From Candidatus Omnitrophota bacterium (GTDB lineage: Bacteria; Omnitrophota; Omnitrophia; Omnitrophales; Aquincolibacteriaceae), in contig JAKLFP010000008.1 of assembly GCA_022711115.1 (NCBI GenBank), positions 70,617 to 132,783 on the forward strand: DNA of 62,167 bases. The letters run 5' to 3'. Made by a program: the position numbers and the translations under genes. Below are positions 1 through 9,109 of the stretch, piece after piece; the stretch's first letter is position 1; every line of letters starts with the position of its first letter. Under the pieces are notes generated by a model that was given only the letters and a program-made list of their open reading frames with translations, was not told the origin of the DNA and made no database searches.

Positions 1-1
1 T

Positions 2-517
<516 letters not shown>

Positions 518-530
518 AAGGATAGCTTTT

Positions 531-1466
531 ATGGCAAATATCTACAGTGATATTACAAAAATAATAGGGAATACCCCTCTCATTAAAGTGAATCGGTTAG
601 CCCAAGGGCTTGGGGCTTCAATTTTGGTGAAACTTGAATCTGCCAATCCGCTTGCTAGCGTCAAAGACCGAATCGGCGTAGCGATGATCGATGCTGCGGA
701 GAAAACCGGAAAACTCAAACCGGGCGGTACCATTGTAGAACCCACCAGTGGGAACACGGGGATCGCCTTGGCTTTTGTAGCGGCGGCGCGTGGGTATCGG
801 TTGATTTTGACGATGCCGGAAACGATGAGCATCGAGCGCCGGCAATTATTAAAAATCTTGGGTGCGGAAGTTGTCTTGACTGAAGGGACAAAGGGGATGA
901 GGGGTGCGGTTGAAAAAGCGGATGAAATTGCAAGAACGACTCCGGGGAGTTTGGTGCTTCAACAATTTTTGAATCCCGCAAATCCGGATATTCACAGAAA
1001 GACAACCGCCGAAGAAATTTGGAACGATACCGATGGAGCAGTGGATATTTTTGTGGCAGGCATTGGAACCGGGGGTACGATCACGGGCGTTGGGGAAGTA
1101 CTTAAGCAAAGGAAGCCTTCGGTGAAAGTTGTTGCTGTAGAACCGGTAGATTCTCCTGTTCTTTCGGGTGGAAAACCTGGAGCGCATAAGATTCAGGGAA
1201 TTGGGGCCGGGTTTGTGCCGGGTGTTCTCAATACCAAAGTTTATGATGAAATTCTTAAGGTTCGTCACGAAGACGCGGGAGAGATTGCACGCAAGCTGGC
1301 CAGAAACGAAGGGATTCTCGGGGGTATTTCCGCGGGAGCCAACGTTTGGGCAGCACTTGAATTGGCGAAAAGACCGGAATCTAAAGGAAAAACAATAGTG
1401 ACCGTTATTTGCGATACCGGAGAACGATATCTTTCAACCTGGCTTTTTCAGGAATTTTTAGGCTAA
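531..1466 (+). CDS. cysK: Cysteine synthase A (O-acetylserine sulfhydrylase)
   Basis: Beta-family PLP enzyme of 311 residues, the usual CysK length, making cysteine from O-acetylserine and sulfide. The PLP lysine is K45 in ASVKDRIG and the substrate-binding loop TSGNTG sits at 72-77; [10 protein letters not shown] near 180 is the phosphate-binding loop and GGISAGAN near 265 follows. A purine-rich GGAT precedes the ATG. It sits between metY and metX with very short gaps, so the three are probably one sulfur-assimilation operon. No serine acetyltransferase for cysteine synthesis lies next to it; the LbH protein at 27.9 kb sits in a glycan cluster. Confidence 0.95.
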
Positions 1467-1469
1467 GAC

Positions 1470-2591
1470 ATGACCGCAAAGACTCTCGGAAAAATAGAAA
1501 CCAAGTATTTTACTTTTGCACAGCCTTCGCATGAGTTCAAGCTGGAATCGGGGCGGACCTTCGGCCCCATTACCGTTGCTTATGAGAGCTACGGACAGCT
1601 CAATGCAGATAAAAGCAATACCATTCTTGTGATGCATGCGTTTTCCGGAAACGCACATGTCGCGGGACCTGTCAGCGAAGAACAAGATCCGCCGTGGTGG
1701 GATTTCATGGTAGGTCCTGGGAAGGCTCTTGATACGGAAAAATATTTTGTTCTTTGCGCCAATGTCATCGGTGGCTGTAAAGGGACTACCGGACCGTCTT
1801 CCATGAATCCCAAAACAGGAAAGCCCTATGCTCTTGATTTTCCGCTTATCACGATCGGAGACATGGTGCGCGTCCAAAAAACTTTGATCGATCATCTTGG
1901 CATTAAGAAACTTCATGGGGTGATTGGCGGTTCCATGGGGGGGATGCTCGCGCTTCAATGGGTCGCTTTATACCCGGACGCTGTGGAGTGTGTGATTCCG
2001 ATCGCAGCCACGTTAAAACATTCACCCCAGCAAATTGCATTTAATGAAGTGGGGCGTCAAGCGATTATGGCAGATCCTGCCTGGAATTATGGGAATTATT
2101 ACGGCGGGGCTTTGCCGGAAAAAGGCCTTGCTGTGGCGCGCATGGTTGGGCACATTACCTACATGAGCAATGATTCCATGGAAAAAAAATTTTCCCGGCG
2201 GCTTAAAGACGATCATTCCGGATTTAAATTCTCGGCCGATTTTGAAGTGGAGGGGTATCTTCAGCATCGCGGTATGAGTTTTGTAAAACGCTTTGATGCG
2301 AATTCCTATCTCTATATCACCAAGGCGATGGATTATTTTGATCTCTCGGATGCAAAATGGATCCCGCCGCAGGGCCTTCCGAATGTCCGGTTTTTGGTGA
2401 TAGCCTTTAAATCCGATTGGCTTTATCCTTCCGTTCAATCGCAGGAAATGGTTCGCCAGCTCAAGATGCGGCAGATCGATGCGACTTATTGTGAGATTGA
2501 TGCTAGTTACGGGCACGATTCCTTTTTAATCGAAAGTGAATCGGAAAAGCAGTCGCATCTTATCAAGCACTTTCTTGCCAAAAGAAAATAA
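1470..2591 (+). CDS. metX: Homoserine O-acetyltransferase
   Basis: Alpha/beta-hydrolase-fold acyltransferase (373 residues) that activates homoserine with acetyl-CoA for methionine synthesis. The nucleophile elbow GGSMGGM places the catalytic serine at S155; the acid and base are D316 (KSDWLYPS) and H349 (YGHDSF), completing the triad. NVIGGCKGTTGPSS near 100-111 is a MetX family signature. It begins 3 bp after cysK and is followed by metW, the common metX-metW partner. Whether it uses acetyl- or succinyl-CoA cannot be read safely; the presence of metY favours acetyl. Confidence 0.94.
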   Translation: MTAKTLGKIETKYFTFAQPSHEFKLESGRTFGPITVAYESYGQLNADKSNTILVMHAFSGNAHVAGPVSEEQDPPWWDFMVGPGKALDTEKYFVLCANVIGGCKGTTGPSSMNPKTGKPYALDFPLITIGDMVRVQKTLIDHLGIKKLHGVIGGSMGGMLALQWVALYPDAVECVIPIAATLKHSPQQIAFNEVGRQAIMADPAWNYGNYYGGALPEKGLAVARMVGHITYMSNDSMEKKFSRRLKDDHSGFKFSADFEVEGYLQHRGMSFVKRFDANSYLYITKAMDYFDLSDAKWIPPQGLPNVRFLVIAFKSDWLYPSVQSQEMVRQLKMRQIDATYCEIDASYGHDSFLIESESEKQSHLIKHFLAKRK

Positions 2592-2614
2592 AACCCCCTT
2601 TCATTTGGTTTTCC

Positions 2615-2643
2615 TTGAAAAAAATAGCGAGGAGGAATACTAT
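2615..2643 (+). promoter_or_regulatory. Sigma70-like promoter in front of metW
   Basis: TTGAAA (2615-2620), a 17-bp spacer and TACTAT (2638-2643) lie between metX and metW. Transcription would start near 2650 and leave a short leader with an AAAGGAAA ribosome site before the ATG at 2673. This suggests metW can be expressed separately from metYX. Confidence 0.5.
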
Positions 2644-2672
2644 CTCTACTCAAATAAAAGGAAACGGATAGA

Positions 2673-3266
2673 ATGAAATCGACTATGAAACGGCTTGATG
2701 ATCAGGTTATTTATGGGATCGTGGCATCCGGTGCCAGTGTGCTCGATCTCGGATGCGGGAGTGGCGACTTATTAAGCTTATTGGTCCAGGGTAAACAAGT
2801 GAAGGCTCAGGGAGTCGAGCTGAACAACGATGCGATTCATGCCTGCGTCGAAAAAGGATTAAGTGTTTTTCATAGCGATATCGATAGCGGGTTGCCTTAT
2901 TATCCCGAACAATCCTTTGATTATGTGATTCTGAACCAGAGTTTGCAGGAAGTGAAAGGAGTGGAAACGGTTATCAGCGAGGCGTTACGGGTCGGTAAAA
3001 AGGTGATCATCGGTTTTCCGAATTTTGCACATATTGAATCACGAATCCTGATGTTTTTTGGGGGTCGTGCACCCATCAGTTCTTCTTTGCCCTATTCTTG
3101 GTACAGTACCCCGAACCTGCGTTTTCTTTCCATCAAGGATTTCCGGGATTTTTGCCGGATCAAGCATTACAAAATCCTGGAAGCTCATTATCTCGGTCTG
3201 CGTGGGGAAATTCACATCCTTCCCAATCTTTTTGCTCTCAACGCCATCTTCGTGATCACGAAATAA
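2673..3266 (+). CDS. metW: Methionine biosynthesis protein MetW
   Basis: Class I SAM-dependent methyltransferase-like protein of 197 residues. The SAM motif I VLDLGCGSGDLL is at about residues 23-34 and FDYVILNQSLQEV is motif IV. The tail with GGRAPISSSLPYSWYSTPNLRFLS is diagnostic of MetW, which in other bacteria acts together with MetX in homoserine acylation. It follows metX and has its own candidate promoter and an AAAGGAAA ribosome site. The gene ends inside a strong hairpin. Confidence 0.93.
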   Translation: MKSTMKRLDDQVIYGIVASGASVLDLGCGSGDLLSLLVQGKQVKAQGVELNNDAIHACVEKGLSVFHSDIDSGLPYYPEQSFDYVILNQSLQEVKGVETVISEALRVGKKVIIGFPNFAHIESRILMFFGGRAPISSSLPYSWYSTPNLRFLSIKDFRDFCRIKHYKILEAHYLGLRGEIHILPNLFALNAIFVITK

Positions 3267-3335: not shown

Positions 3336-4103
3336 TTATTTAGCGTACATAATTTTCAATTGATCCATGGTCGGTTTTTCTTTGTAATATTCACCAGAAG
3401 GTCCCACATAACCGTCTTTGGTTCGCGTCATAGTGACTTTCGTGAAACTCCCATTTTTATTAGGCACTTGAAAAACGAGTTCTTCCGGAAGAGGTCTTTC
3501 AGCGGCCGATGAATCTTTCGCATACATGGCTTTCAATTGATCGATGGTGGGATAATCCGGATAAAATTCTCCATTCGGTCCTTTATAGCCATTACTGTAT
3601 TTTTCCAAAGTCACGGGCATATAGCTGCCATTCGGATTGGGGACTGTCACCATAACAGTTTTTTCCGGCGCTTCGACAGCGGGTGGATTTGATGTCACAA
3701 CCTGGGGAGGCGGAGTGACAACGGTATATCCAGAAGGTTCCTGGACATAATAGGTGTTGTTGTAAAAGTAATAGTTCCTTCCCTCATAGGGGATTTGTCG
3801 GTAGTAGGGAGGTAATGTTGGAATAGCAGCGCCCAAAGGTGCGGAAACAACGACATAACCTGCGGGGGTGTACTGGTAATACATGCCGCTCGCGTAATAA
3901 TAAAGCATGTCTGCGATTCTCAAAGTAAGATAACCCCGCGGAAGTGCATGATAGTAATGAAATGGCCGGGCATAAAAAGCCTCATGGCGCTCATGCCCTC
4001 CCCTCATCTCATGGCCTCCTCGAGGGGCTGCAACTGCTGTTTGAGTAAATGAGAAAATGCTTACAAATAGCATAACATAGAAGAAACTTTGCCTTGTCTT
4101 CAT
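3336..4103 (-). CDS. Secreted DUF6515-like protein with two C-terminal repeats
   Basis: Protein of 255 residues with a clear signal peptide (positively charged start, hydrophobic core, cleavage near AVAAPRG at about 25). Residues 60-135 are tyrosine-rich with the YYYASGMYYQ...GYVVVSAPLGA...LPP...YYFYNNTYY pattern I recognise as DUF6515. Two tandem copies of a ~47-residue unit follow, each reading VPNxNGSx..VT....GYxGPxGEFY...PTxDQLKxMYAK; the protein ends exactly at the end of the second copy. AAAGGAGA precedes the ATG. Likely periplasmic or surface located; function unknown. The repeats bracket a K/R-E-rich hinge. Confidence 0.8.
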   Translation of the reverse strand: MKTRQSFFYVMLFVSIFSFTQTAVAAPRGGHEMRGGHERHEAFYARPFHYYHALPRGYLTLRIADMLYYYASGMYYQYTPAGYVVVSAPLGAAIPTLPPYYRQIPYEGRNYYFYNNTYYVQEPSGYTVVTPPPQVVTSNPPAVEAPEKTVMVTVPNPNGSYMPVTLEKYSNGYKGPNGEFYPDYPTIDQLKAMYAKDSSAAERPLPEELVFQVPNKNGSFTKVTMTRTKDGYVGPSGEYYKEKPTMDQLKIMYAK

Positions 4104-5136: not shown

Positions 5137-5140
5137 AAGA

Positions 5141-5240
5141 AGGGGATGGCAGTTTCCCTACGCTGGCATTATCCAGATCAGGTTATTAGGGTCATCCGCT
5201 TTAGCGGAACTCTCAGGCCTTGAAACGACCTCCCCATTTA
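5141..5240 (-). promoter_or_regulatory. TPP riboswitch (THI element)
   Basis: Read on the minus strand, the segment carries CTGAGA, then ACCCTAATAACCTGATCTGG, then ATAATGCCAGCGTAGGGA, the conserved core of the thiamine pyrophosphate aptamer. GGGG at 5232-5235 and CCCC at 5142-5145 can close the basal P1 helix. It lies about 70 nt upstream of thi4 and would switch the gene off when TPP is plentiful. Confidence 0.96.
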
Positions 5241-5254
5241 GAAAAAACGAACAT

Positions 5255-5320: not shown

Positions 5321-5370
5321 TTGACGAAAAGATTTAAGAGATTACAATTCCTACTAACCTTATAGGAATT
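5321..5370 (+). promoter_or_regulatory. Promoter with overlapping palindromic operator for the Rrf2 operon
   Basis: TTGACG (5321-5326), 16 bp and TACAAT (5343-5348) form a good sigma70 promoter. A perfect 8-bp inverted repeat, AATTCCTA (5346-5353) and TAGGAATT (5363-5370) around a 9-bp centre, overlaps the -10 and ends exactly at the ATG of the regulator. This arrangement predicts autorepression by the Rrf2 protein. If the -10 is right the start site would fall inside the palindrome and leave a leader of about 15 nt. Confidence 0.75.
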
Positions 5371-5772
5371 ATGAAACTAACGACGCGCAGTGAATATGCT
5401 TTTCTTGCCATGCTGAGTATTGCCCGCTCGAAAGAGAAGGGCTATATCCCGCTTTCTAAAATCGCCAAAGAACAAAAATTACCGATAAAGTATATGGAGC
5501 AACTCATGCAGACTTTATGTAGAGCCGGTTATCTCTCCAGCACACGAGGGAAAGAAGGGGGATACCGTCTAGCGAAACCTTCCCAGGAAATTACAATCGC
5601 GGAAATCATTCGTTTATTTGATGGGGCGCTGGCGCCGACGGAATCTGTAAGCACTTATTTTTATCGTTCGACACCTCTTTTGAAAGAAAAAAAGCTGATC
5701 AAGATGATGAAAAAAATCCGCGACTATATTGCCCATACGCTAGAAACGCATACGCTCGCGGATGTCATTTGA
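5371..5772 (+). CDS. Rrf2-family transcriptional regulator
   Basis: Protein of 133 residues with the Rrf2 winged helix-turn-helix: MKLTTRSEYAFLAML at the start, IPLSKIAKEQKLPIKYMEQL as recognition region, and the wing STRGKEGGYRLAKP. The C-terminal region reads DGALAPTESVS, where cluster-binding members usually carry a cysteine; only one Cys (C50) is present in the whole protein, so it is unlikely to bind an Fe-S cluster as IscR or NsrR do and is closer to the clusterless CymR type. It heads the operon with the ABC ATPase, GTPase and Fe-S protein and has a palindrome over its own promoter. Confidence 0.9.
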   Translation: MKLTTRSEYAFLAMLSIARSKEKGYIPLSKIAKEQKLPIKYMEQLMQTLCRAGYLSSTRGKEGGYRLAKPSQEITIAEIIRLFDGALAPTESVSTYFYRSTPLLKEKKLIKMMKKIRDYIAHTLETHTLADVI

Positions 5773-5791
5773 AAATTTTTAATTTAAAACA

Positions 5792-5807
5792 TACTAATCA
5801 TATAGGA
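5792..5807 (+). promoter_or_regulatory. Second operator-like site before the ABC ATPase gene
   Basis: TACTAATCATATAGGA matches 14 of 16 bases of the centre and right half of the upstream palindrome (TACTAACCTTATAGGA at 5352-5367). The left arm is degenerate (AAAACATA). The AGGAG here is also the ribosome site of the next gene, so part of the match may be due to that. Confidence 0.35.
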
Positions 5808-5818
5808 GAAGCATAGAA

Positions 5819-6604
5819 ATGATTGAATCCATCACTATTTTAAGCGGGCGGGGCAAGCAAGGAATATCCGAGACTGTCAGACGCATTGATTTCAAAATGG
5901 GAGATGTGGTCAGTATTGTTGGACCAACGGGATCAGGTAAAACCACTTTAATCAATGATATTGAGTTATTTGCGGATGGGACCACGCCTACGGGGCGAAC
6001 GGTGTTGATTAACGGGATGCAGCCGTCTTCAGAATACCGGGATAACCCAGCGTGCAATCCCATAGCTCTCATTACACAGCATACGACATTCCTCTCTGAT
6101 TTGCCGGTTCATGAGTTTTTGAAAGCGCATGCGCGTATCCGTTCCAATTCCGACAGGGGCAGCCAGGAACTTATACAACAGACACTTGATTTTGCCAATC
6201 AATTGACAGGGGAACCGATTGTGCTGACCAGTCAGATGACGGAACTTTCGGGAGGTCAGACGCGGGCGCTTTTGATTGCGGATGCAACCATAATTTGTAA
6301 CACACCGATTGTGCTATTAGATGAAGTAGAAAACGCGGGGATTCATCGGACCCGAGCGCTTGAACTTTTGCGCCAATATAAAAAGATATTTGTCTTTGTC
6401 ACTCACGATCCGCGCATTGCTCTGCTTTCCGATTATCGGATTATTATGCGCCAGGGATGCATCACGGATGTGCTGTATGCAAGTGAAGAAGAACGTGAAT
6501 GTGCTGTCAGGGTAAGTCATCTGGATGATTTGTTAACGAAAATGCGGGATAAACTGCGCTATGGAGAGCGACTCACTATTGAGGAATTGGAGGGTGTATT
6601 ATGA
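5819..6604 (+). CDS. ABC-type ATPase, stand-alone, unknown partner
   Basis: Protein of 261 residues with a complete ABC nucleotide-binding domain: Walker A GPTGSGKT (35-42), Q-loop near Q87, signature LSGGQ (143-147), Walker B IVLLDE (164-169) and switch VTHD (194-197). No permease gene is nearby, and Walker B is followed by VENAGIHR, not the usual transporter PT.ALD, so a soluble ATPase role seems likelier than transport. The last ~45 residues are a charged helical tail. The stop overlaps the next start (ATGA), implying coupled synthesis with the GTPase. AGGAG lies 8 nt before the ATG. Confidence 0.8.
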   Translation: MIESITILSGRGKQGISETVRRIDFKMGDVVSIVGPTGSGKTTLINDIELFADGTTPTGRTVLINGMQPSSEYRDNPACNPIALITQHTTFLSDLPVHEFLKAHARIRSNSDRGSQELIQQTLDFANQLTGEPIVLTSQMTELSGGQTRALLIADATIICNTPIVLLDEVENAGIHRTRALELLRQYKKIFVFVTHDPRIALLSDYRIIMRQGCITDVLYASEEERECAVRVSHLDDLLTKMRDKLRYGERLTIEELEGVL

Positions 6605-7302
6605 AACTGGTGGTGTGTGCGGGACCGGCAACAACCGGTAAAACGGCAGTCTTACGGCATATGATTCGTAAGTTGTTGGCAAAAAACCTTCGCTCGGCGT
6701 TTTTAAAAATCGATGTGCAATATGCCGAGGAAGATGAAATTTTCGCCAGAGAATTCGAGATCCCGACACGCAAAGTTTACTCCGGAGAGCTTTGTCCTGA
6801 TCATTGCAATGTGATGGTTTTGGGAGATGCACTGCGGTGGGCCAGTGACGAAAGTTGCCAGGTGCTTATGGTGGAGACGGCCGGATTGTGTTTACGGTGT
6901 TCTCCCTATGTGGATGGCGGCTTGGGGATGGTTGTTTTGGAGGCAACCAGCGGTATGAATCTTCCCTTGAAGGTAGGTCCGATGTTGTCGCTGGCGGATA
7001 TTGCTGTTATTACCAAAATCGACCGGGTTTCCCAGGCGGAGCGGGAAGTGTTTCGATATCGTATTCAGGATGTGGCCCCTCAAGTGCGTATTCGCGAGGT
7101 TAATGCACTCTATGGTATCGGGATCGATCCTTTGGTCGCAAGCGTGGAGGCATTTCCGGATGCGGGAGAAAATCTGTTGCTTCGGGGCAATCCTCCGGTC
7201 GGGACCTGTACGATTTGCGTCGGGAAAAAAGAAGTGGGCTGGCAGGCGCATTTCGGAGTGGTACGGGCTCTCGACAATCAGGTTTTTTATCGGGGAGAGT
7301 AA
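6601..7302 (+). CDS. HypB/CobW-like P-loop GTPase with cysteine motifs
   Basis: Protein of 233 residues of the SIMIBI class. P-loop GPATTGKT is at 8-15, LKIDVQYAEED (35-45) resembles a switch region, VETAGLC (91-97) occupies the Walker B/G3 place, and TKID (138-141) is the G4 guanine-specificity motif. Candidate metal ligands are C65 and C69 (ELCPDHC), C97 and C100 (CLRC) and C203 and C206 (CTIC near the C-terminus). These features resemble nickel or cobalt insertion GTPases, but it is not HypB, UreG or CobW. Start overlaps the ATPase stop. A role in loading metal or an Fe-S cluster is inference. Confidence 0.75.
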   Translation: MKLVVCAGPATTGKTAVLRHMIRKLLAKNLRSAFLKIDVQYAEEDEIFAREFEIPTRKVYSGELCPDHCNVMVLGDALRWASDESCQVLMVETAGLCLRCSPYVDGGLGMVVLEATSGMNLPLKVGPMLSLADIAVITKIDRVSQAEREVFRYRIQDVAPQVRIREVNALYGIGIDPLVASVEAFPDAGENLLLRGNPPVGTCTICVGKKEVGWQAHFGVVRALDNQVFYRGE

Positions 7303-7385
7303 CAAGCAAAATTTGTGATCCCTACGACTGAAATAGAAAAGACTACTTTAGCGATTATTGGATTAAATTCCAAGGAGGCACTTTC

Positions 7386-8087
7386 ATGGCGACGACTGAA
7401 CTAAAATTACCGGGATTGAATTGCGGGCTTTGCGGGTACAGAACTTGCGCAGAAATGGCGGAGCAGCTTTCGACTAAGCCGGAACTGCTTAAACGTTGTT
7501 TGCCTTTATCGGAACATCATGAGCAGACGTCTTCTGTGAAGCCTTTTATCACTCCGGCGCCGAAAAAAGATTGCGGGGGTTGTTCGACCGGATGTGTGAC
7601 GGGATATACCGAGGCAACTCAATGGAAAGACAGCCTTGATCGGGAATTTGATTTTTATCTCGAGCATTTTCCGGAGGAACCGGGGCCGCGTGAAATTATT
7701 ATTCCTCATAATCCGATGATTACTCGCGAAATGGATCTCCAGCGTGGTGATATTTTAATCGGGCGTCCGCTTGGTATGTCCTGCGGTTGTCCGATCACGC
7801 ATTGTGGTGTAGTCACGGAAGTGGACAAACGTACGGGAGTGATTGTTTGGTGTGTCACAGGTCCTTTACAGCCCCGCCAGCATGGATATAAGGATATCGG
7901 CTATTACATTGCAGAAGGCTATGAGGGATTGATCAAACAGAGCCGTTGCGAACTCAAAATTGGTATGCGCTATTATTTTCAACCGCGGTTATGTATGCTT
8001 CAATGGCGGCACAGCGGTCTCATCAATTATCTGAATAGACTCAAAGACAGCTACCAAGTACGTCTCGAAGGCCTCTGGATCGGTTAA
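7386..8087 (+). CDS. Cysteine-rich 4Fe-4S domain protein, uncharacterised
   Basis: Protein of 233 residues. The N-terminus LPGLNCGLCGYRTC with C38 (C13, C16, C21, C38) is the Fe-S domain found in CO dehydrogenase/corrinoid subunits and electron-transfer proteins. A second group C63, C66, C70 (CGGCSTGC) and a third C133, C135, C140 (CGCPITHC) follow, plus C156, C188 and C203. The ~150-residue C-terminal region with IIIPHNPMITREMDL and GDILIGRPLG is not one I recognise. AAGGAGG precedes the ATG. It is 83 bp after the GTPase gene on the same strand and is the likely client or partner of the ATPase-GTPase pair. Confidence 0.75.
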   Translation: MATTELKLPGLNCGLCGYRTCAEMAEQLSTKPELLKRCLPLSEHHEQTSSVKPFITPAPKKDCGGCSTGCVTGYTEATQWKDSLDREFDFYLEHFPEEPGPREIIIPHNPMITREMDLQRGDILIGRPLGMSCGCPITHCGVVTEVDKRTGVIVWCVTGPLQPRQHGYKDIGYYIAEGYEGLIKQSRCELKIGMRYYFQPRLCMLQWRHSGLINYLNRLKDSYQVRLEGLWIG

Positions 8088-8185: not shown

Positions 8186-8557
8186 ATGCCGATACAACCT
8201 TCTAAGAAACTTGAAATTTTTAAAAATCCGAATGCAAATCGGAATTATAATATCGATCTCGAATGCCCGGAATTCACGTGTCTTTGCCCCAAGACCGGTC
8301 AACCCGACTTTGCCACGATCCGTATCCGTTATGTTCCCGATGAATTTTGTGTTGAACTGAAGAGTTTTAAGCTTTATTTATGGAGTTATCGTAATGAAGG
8401 AGCGTTTCATGAGGCGGTTACGAACAGGATTCTTGATGATCTGGTGAAAGCGATCAAACCGAGACAAATGACTGTCGAAGCTGATTTTTATGTTCGGGGC
8501 GGCATTCATACAGTGATCACAATCGCTTATTCCAAGAACCGAAAAAGAAGATCTTAA
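8186..8557 (+). CDS. queF: 7-cyano-7-deazaguanine reductase (NADPH-dependent)
   Basis: Tunnel-fold enzyme of 123 residues that reduces preQ0 to preQ1 in queuosine synthesis. [17 protein letters not shown] holds the thioimide-forming C34 and the acid D41; [14 protein letters not shown] carries the substrate-binding E and H. Length matches the short, unimodal QueF form. The gene stands alone, with no queC, queD or queE close by, and its promoter suggests a leaderless mRNA. It is followed 27 bp later by tpx. Confidence 0.94.
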
Positions 8558-8584
8558 ACAAAAATATCTAAGGAGGAAAATCCC

Positions 8585-9109
8585 ATGGTGCAAGAGCGAA
8601 AGGACGTAGCGACTTTTCAAGGAGGGCCTCTGACGCTGATGGGTCCCGAACTGAAGGTGGGAGATAAAGCCCCGGATTTTAAGCTTATCGACACGAGTCT
8701 GAAACCGGTGATGCTTGCCAGCAGCAAAGGAAAAACACGCTTGATCAGTGTCGTGCCTTCCATCGATACCCCTGTCTGTGATCTTCAGACAAAACGTTTC
8801 AATCAAGAAGCTTCCAAACTCCCAGGAGATATCGTTGTGTTGACAGTCAGTATGGATCTCCCTTTTGCGCAAAGTCGCTGGTGCGGGGCTGTGGGTGCGG
8901 ATAAAGTCCAAATGCTTTCGGATTATCAGGAACATTCTTTCGGGGCGGCTTACGGTGTTCTTATCAAAGAGCTGAAACTTCTCAGCCGCGCTATTTTTAT
9001 CGTGAGCCCAAATGACAAAATCAGGTATGTCGAATATGTCAAAGAAATCACTCAGCATCCGGATTATGACAAGGCGCTTGGGGCTCTCAAGTGCAAGTCT
9101 TGTGCTTAA
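8585..9109 (+). CDS. tpx: Thiol peroxidase (2-Cys peroxiredoxin)
   Basis: Peroxiredoxin of 174 residues that reduces lipid and hydrogen peroxides with thioredoxin. Peroxidatic C65 lies in PSIDTPVCDLQT and resolving C100 in SRWCGAVGA, the spacing of the Tpx subfamily; VGDKAPDF near 25 is also typical. AAGGAGG precedes the ATG. Two extra cysteines (CKSC) end the protein. The 3' end overlaps the following signal-peptide gene. Confidence 0.95.
   Translation: MVQERKDVATFQGGPLTLMGPELKVGDKAPDFKLIDTSLKPVMLASSKGKTRLISVVPSIDTPVCDLQTKRFNQEASKLPGDIVVLTVSMDLPFAQSRWCGAVGADKVQMLSDYQEHSFGAAYGVLIKELKLLSRAIFIVSPNDKIRYVEYVKEITQHPDYDKALGALKCKSCA

Follow-up and report, generated by a model that had tools for sequence, protein, structure and literature searches.

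Genes for an ATPase, a Ni2+-binding GTPase and an iron–sulfur (Fe-S) protein of COG2000 adjoin coenzyme M (CoM) genes across methanogen orders, with no role assigned to them (PMC12068725; 2025); the published association covers archaea only. The subject here is a bacterial form of this triad in a 62,167-nucleotide window (the whole stretch of DNA analysed, to which coordinates refer) from a Candidatus Omnitrophota bacterium with a genome of 2.5 Mb. On the forward strand and in one unit, genes were found for an Rrf2-family regulator without conserved cysteines (5371–5772; Pfam Rrf2, 6e-30), a soluble ATP-binding cassette (ABC) ATPase (5819–6604; Pfam ABC_tran, 2e-15; no permease nearby), a HypB/UreG/CobW-type GTPase (6601–7302; Pfam cobW/HypB/UreG, 5e-10) and a two-domain Fe-S protein, here called fes (7386–8087; Pfam FeS PF04060, 3e-9, residues 8–40 only), which the matching gene set and homology suggest to be COG2000-like. 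In methanogens these three genes follow one another in an identical order and their products are homologous along their length (hidden Markov models of the window families gave 1e-92, 1e-92 and 1e-41 with the archaeal copies), and the candidate ligands of fes are invariant in bacteria and methanogen-type genomes (C13, C16, C21 and C38 in the N-terminal domain; C135, H139, C203 and H209 in the C-terminal domain). The bacterial copies differ in mostly lacking a COG1900 enzyme, in often carrying a cysteine desulfurase gene (nifS) and the Rrf2 gene in addition, and in lying beside cysK, metY or the gene for cystathionine beta-synthase (CBS). We read the unit, with about even confidence, as an accessory machine that would mobilise sulfur and assemble or hand on a metal–sulfur group for small-thiol biosynthesis.

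In outline the module is SUF-like, with a cysteine desulfurase, a soluble permease-less ABC ATPase and a cluster-binding partner, yet it is no member of that system, because it has no SufB/SufD homologue (PF01458 was not found in the window operon), its desulfurase is NifS-type and not SufS-type, and fes is unrelated in sequence and matches only PF04060; the GTPase is extra. From ISC and NIF the window operon differs in having neither an IscU/NifU scaffold (PF01592 was found in none of its proteins) nor a group I cysteine desulfurase (IscS/NifS). The GTPase resembles the metal-insertion GTPases HypB, UreG and CobW in being a G3E-type P-loop GTPase with predicted metal-ligand cysteines and histidines, but it scores far under the NCBIfam cut-offs (HypB 46 bits, cut-off 121; UreG 26, cut-off 204), has a set of three cysteine pairs that is distinct from theirs and is accompanied by no HypA, UreE, hydrogenase or urease partner. 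The N-terminal 40 residues of fes are like the 4-Cys Fe-S domain of CFeSP/RnfB-type proteins, whose N-domains were its only sequence relatives; the remaining 190 residues are without a Pfam match, the C-terminal 156 matched no Pfam, NCBIfam or PDB family, and nothing was over cut-off for fes in NCBIfam. The Rrf2 protein is likewise below cut-off for IscR (82, cut-off 208) and CymR (87, cut-off 195). The preliminary description of this DNA, which had reported no match to Isc, Suf, Nif, Hyp, Cob or Ure, is thus borne out for all four proteins at the level of NCBIfam equivalog cut-offs. No cognate permease gene was found in the window operon, and none was conserved or recurrent in the flanks of related loci.

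Bacterial and archaeal species genomes were scanned with fes, which gave 173 relatives; 80 of these loci were taken with their flanks, and the locus counts given here rest on these 80. The order ABC–GTPase–fes was kept in 72 of the 72 loci that held all three genes with enough flank, with a 4-nt overlap of the ATPase and GTPase genes in 52 of them. The triad is therefore a real, conserved unit, its order being far beyond chance, and the question of whether the triplet always occurs together was answered in the affirmative. Six of the other eight loci are truncated by contig ends and two contain fes alone. One of the latter (L091, 3855–4682) is a solitary fes in an archaeal genome of only 0.8 Mb, with no ATPase or GTPase gene nearby; the other (L089, 9968–10677) is a decayed, frame-shifted fes without ATPase or GTPase, followed by cysK and the thiamine-salvage genes for hydroxyethylthiazole kinase and thiamine phosphate synthase. 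Pairwise distances of the three triad proteins were correlated (r = 0.45–0.63; 0 of 500 permutations as high), and among 193 Omnitrophota genomes the ATPase was present in 8, all 8 with the full triad. Constant order, overlap, correlated distances and this completeness argue that the module travels, and is passed on to descendants, as a single block. Bacterial hosts are Omnitrophota, Planctomycetota, Chloroflexota, Hydrogenedentota, Acidobacteriota, Myxococcota, Alphaproteobacteria (Rhodoblastus sphagnicola and Pararhodospirillum oryzae) and a Clostridiaceae bacterium, and archaeal hosts are Thermoplasmata and others. The spread is patchy (3 full-length matches in 297 genomes of one phylum, 5 in 293 of an archaeal phylum), even inside a genus; no annotated plasmid-borne copies were found. 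That the module is accessory and has spread horizontally belongs to the reading given above and is held with the same even confidence.

In the ATPase the Walker A, LSGGQ and Walker B motifs are intact and the D-loop is an invariant ENAGI (motifs compared in 73 sequences); the usual D-loop of ABC ATPases is SALD, and ENAGI is unusual by comparison. The three cysteine pairs noticed earlier in the GTPase do exist (C65/C69, C97/C100 and C203/C206) and are at least 96% conserved in 76 homologues, with C69 replaced by Met in methanogen-type copies; invariant candidate ligands across bacteria and methanogen-type genomes are C65, H68, C97, C100, C203, C206 and H217, and the predicted metal-ligand sets are CPDH(C), CLRC, CTIC and H217. 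The layout of fes is an N-terminal 4-Cys Fe-S domain, a linker with a CxxC and a C-terminal domain that AlphaFold2 models as mostly-beta (pLDDT 93, pTM 0.86).

In 43 of the 80 loci the GTPase gene and fes are separated by a gene for a cysteine desulfurase, a member of the set that the preliminary description had missed. Its product is closest to NifS (TIGR03402, just under the cut-off), scores below both the NifS and the IscS equivalog cut-offs and has an invariant catalytic Cys. Both sister genomes (G021 and G022), whose fes is 82–83% identical to that of the window, carry nifS at the place where the window has an 83-nt gap (7303–7385, forward strand), and no NifS/IscS-type relative was found in the window genome at E<=1e-30; the window has lost nifS. 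Presence of nifS was weakly associated with the linker CxxC of fes (30/41 versus 20/31).

An orthologous Rrf2 gene lies directly upstream of the triad in 30 loci, and no conserved Cys column was seen in 28 orthologues, unlike the IscR/NsrR Fe-S sensors with their cluster-ligand cysteines. Position 5321, which had been given as the start of the unit, is the first base of a good −35/−10 pair, a predicted sigma-70-type promoter on the forward strand (5321–5348: TTGACG at 5321–5326, a 16-nt spacer and TACAAT at 5343–5348, from sequence reading). It is followed by a predicted Rrf2-type operator, TCCTACTAACCTTATAGGAATT (5349–5370), with the inverted repeat ATTCCTA..TAGGAAT spanning the transcription start, and a predicted second copy, ACATACTAATCATATAGGAGAA (5789–5810), stands upstream of the ATPase gene on the same strand. 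The motif recurs before rrf2 and abc in homologous loci; a site near TNTGACTAANNCNATAGGNTAA (at least 13 of 17 positions) was present in 32% of upstream regions versus 0.24% of shuffles, a figure that is optimistic because the consensus was drawn from the same upstream regions. In a genome-wide search the only other gene to stand out was one for an MBL-rhodanese (persulfide-dioxygenase-like) protein in two Chloroflexota, with two operator copies before it; a similar rhodanese gene lies directly 3' of fes in two other loci. Remaining matches were chance-like (within genes or before unrelated genes), with equally many for a reversed-pattern control, and the metY operon of the window is not preceded by a module operator that reaches the threshold. 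A homologue of a sigma-54-type regulator recurs near the module (L046, L057, L064 and L092) in loci mostly without an Rrf2 gene (e.g. L057) and could be an alternative regulator.

Among same-strand downstream genes the families PALP (10) and Cys_Met_Meta_PP (5) are enriched, and the neighbours of these families were identified as CysK, CBS, MetY (O-acetylhomoserine sulfhydrylase) and CGL (cystathionine gamma-lyase). Such sulfur-assimilation neighbours occur in 13 of the 80 loci, in at least five phyla and within 915 kb of total flank. In the window a cluster not remarked on before, metY (3' part), cysK, metX and metW (1–3266, forward strand; NCBIfam), lies just upstream of the module; another Rrf2-like gene stands in front of it, beyond the window, in a CymR-like arrangement (L215, 7363–11883), and the metY-cysK-metX-metW arrangement is likewise beside the module in a sister genome. 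In two methanogen-type archaeal genomes (G659 and G662) the triad leads directly into MMP16 (coenzyme M synthase), cysteate synthase and sulfopyruvate decarboxylase; no CoM biosynthesis genes were found around the window or the bacterial loci. The genes that recur beside the module are thus those of cysteine, homocysteine and coenzyme M biosynthesis, and not thi4 or a metalloenzyme gene, the partners considered in the preliminary description.

A machine for thiol biosynthesis is favoured because a constant core with an optional desulfurase fits sulfur drawn from cysteine or from sulfide, and the neighbours either use sulfide or make the cysteine of NifS. In the mechanism that we infer, in which sulfur and metal binding, the direction of transfer and the clients are the proposed elements, NifS would load sulfur on fes, with free sulfide or another desulfurase taking over where NifS is missing; the GTPase would supply or check a metal via its Cys/His sets; and the ABC ATPase may power a conformational step, by analogy with SufC in SUF. 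The N-domain of fes would carry a [4Fe-4S] cluster and the C-domain site C135/H139/C203/H209 would hold sulfur or a metal–sulfur unit, so that fes, which had been described as a Cys-rich client, fits better in the role of scaffold or carrier inside the machine. The product would go to enzymes that use sulfide or form thiols (CysK, MetY and CBS/CGL in bacteria; the CoM synthase MMP16 in methanogens), and Rrf2 may let the operon respond to the status of cysteine or persulfide. Several points weigh against this interpretation. Most loci (Planctomycetota, Hydrogenedentota, Alphaproteobacteria and others) are without a sulfur-assimilation neighbour; CysK and MetY use free sulfide and, to our knowledge, require no accessory; CysK, CBS and CGL could merely supply cysteine to NifS and so be suppliers, not clients. 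Metal and cluster binding is deduced solely from conserved residues, and neither fes nor its C-domain had a relative among solved structures at E<=0.001 (Foldseek), which leaves no fold to argue from.

The same supplier role is central to the explanation ranked second, which is possible but distinctly less probable: the four proteins would build a specific metal–sulfur cluster for one metalloenzyme encoded elsewhere, and the sulfur-gene neighbours would do nothing but feed cysteine to NifS. A HypB-like GTPase, an ABC ATPase, a desulfurase and an Fe-S carrier are what a maturation system classically consists of, and the patchy spread described above would suit a dedicated one. A maturation type of function in the broad sense, for a metallocentre or Fe-S cluster, had been proposed in the preliminary description and is strengthened by the 43 loci with nifS, the invariant Cys/His sets and the control by Rrf2. 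Against a single dedicated target stand the flanks of about 80 loci, in which no metalloenzyme gene was recurrent, and the link to thiol biosynthesis, which bacteria and methanogens both show with different enzymes. An Rrf2-controlled system for stress, repairing Fe-S clusters or dealing with reactive sulfur species, is unlikely; the operator before the MBL-rhodanese gene and the rhodanese genes after fes speak for it, but that operator arrangement was seen in Chloroflexota only, the arrangement in methanogens is biosynthetic, and the Rrf2 protein is without the cysteines of IscR/NsrR-type sensors.

Very little probability is given to a sulfur donor solely for COG1900 aldehyde sulfurtransferases (the CoM synthase MMP16 and the homocysteine synthase L-ASST). 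MMP16 directly follows the triad in two methanogen-type genomes and the association is reported across methanogen orders, which agrees with it, but PF01837, which detects MMP16, was found in only 1 of the 8 module-bearing Omnitrophota and in 6 of 52 module genomes other than the two methanogen-type ones; on this co-occurrence a COG1900 client was rejected for bacteria in general, and it could hold in methanogens only. Still less probable is general-purpose Fe-S assembly in place of ISC or SUF, to which the SUF-like parts (desulfurase, ABC ATPase and scaffold) had pointed: NifU_N-type scaffolds were present in 53 of 57 and SufBD in 29 of 50 module genomes, and a module patchy even within a genus was rejected as a replacement for housekeeping systems that co-occur with it. 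Because systems of the NifU/IscU or SufBD type are retained in almost every module genome, the module is an additional system.

Fe/S delivery to the adjacent thiazole synthase Thi4, raised in the preliminary description on the strength of the common intergenic region, is the least probable of all and was rejected as a general partnership, even though the window Thi4 passes the model cut-off for sulfide-dependent ADP-thiazole synthase and thiamine genes follow decayed fes and cysK at the distant locus L089, since thi4 has its own thiamine pyrophosphate (TPP) riboswitch (5138–5246, reverse strand; RF00059, 61.1 bits), is beside the module in no other module locus, and is absent from both sister genomes, Thi4 being found in 2 of 8 module-bearing Omnitrophota genomes versus 79 of 185 others. 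The gene lies on the opposite strand and is transcribed away from the module, and the riboswitch in its leader accounts for the thi4 side of the intergenic region. What that description observed was confirmed: the Rrf2, ATPase, GTPase and Cys-rich open reading frames lie in one unit where they had been placed, with the ATGA overlap of ATPase and GTPase at 6601–6604.

Two further features of the window were noted. Genes for queF (preQ1 synthase) and a thiol peroxidase lie downstream of the module (8186–9109), likewise in both sister genomes, and a gene on the reverse strand (3336–4103) encodes a secreted protein that is without an NCBIfam match and in which a C-terminal motif (GxNGxYxPVTx..GYxGPxGEYY..PTxDQLKxMYAK) is repeated twice.

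The triad is already known in methanogens, without an assigned function; no account of the bacterial form with NifS and Rrf2 was found in the literature covered (incompletely, with few subscription journals), and this form appears undescribed. Known systems for assembling Fe-S and other metal clusters are few (ISC, SUF, NIF and the minimal MIS and SMS), and each opened a field. The module has the parts list of those systems, except that its scaffold is a different one and a GTPase is added, and we suggest tentatively, at somewhat less than even probability, that it may be a further kind of metal–sulfur assembly and sulfur-delivery machine, common to bacteria and methanogens, that would supply thiol-forming enzymes, coenzyme M synthase included, with bound sulfur or a special cluster; its ABC ATPase and its HypB-type GTPase would both drive an unrelated scaffold with a new fold (the fes C-domain). 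Two clues that the methanogen forms lack come from the bacterial ones, whose operon can include a cysteine desulfurase and whose regulator has an operator that can be read, and the hosts include two named cultured bacteria in which removal of the genes could address the function.

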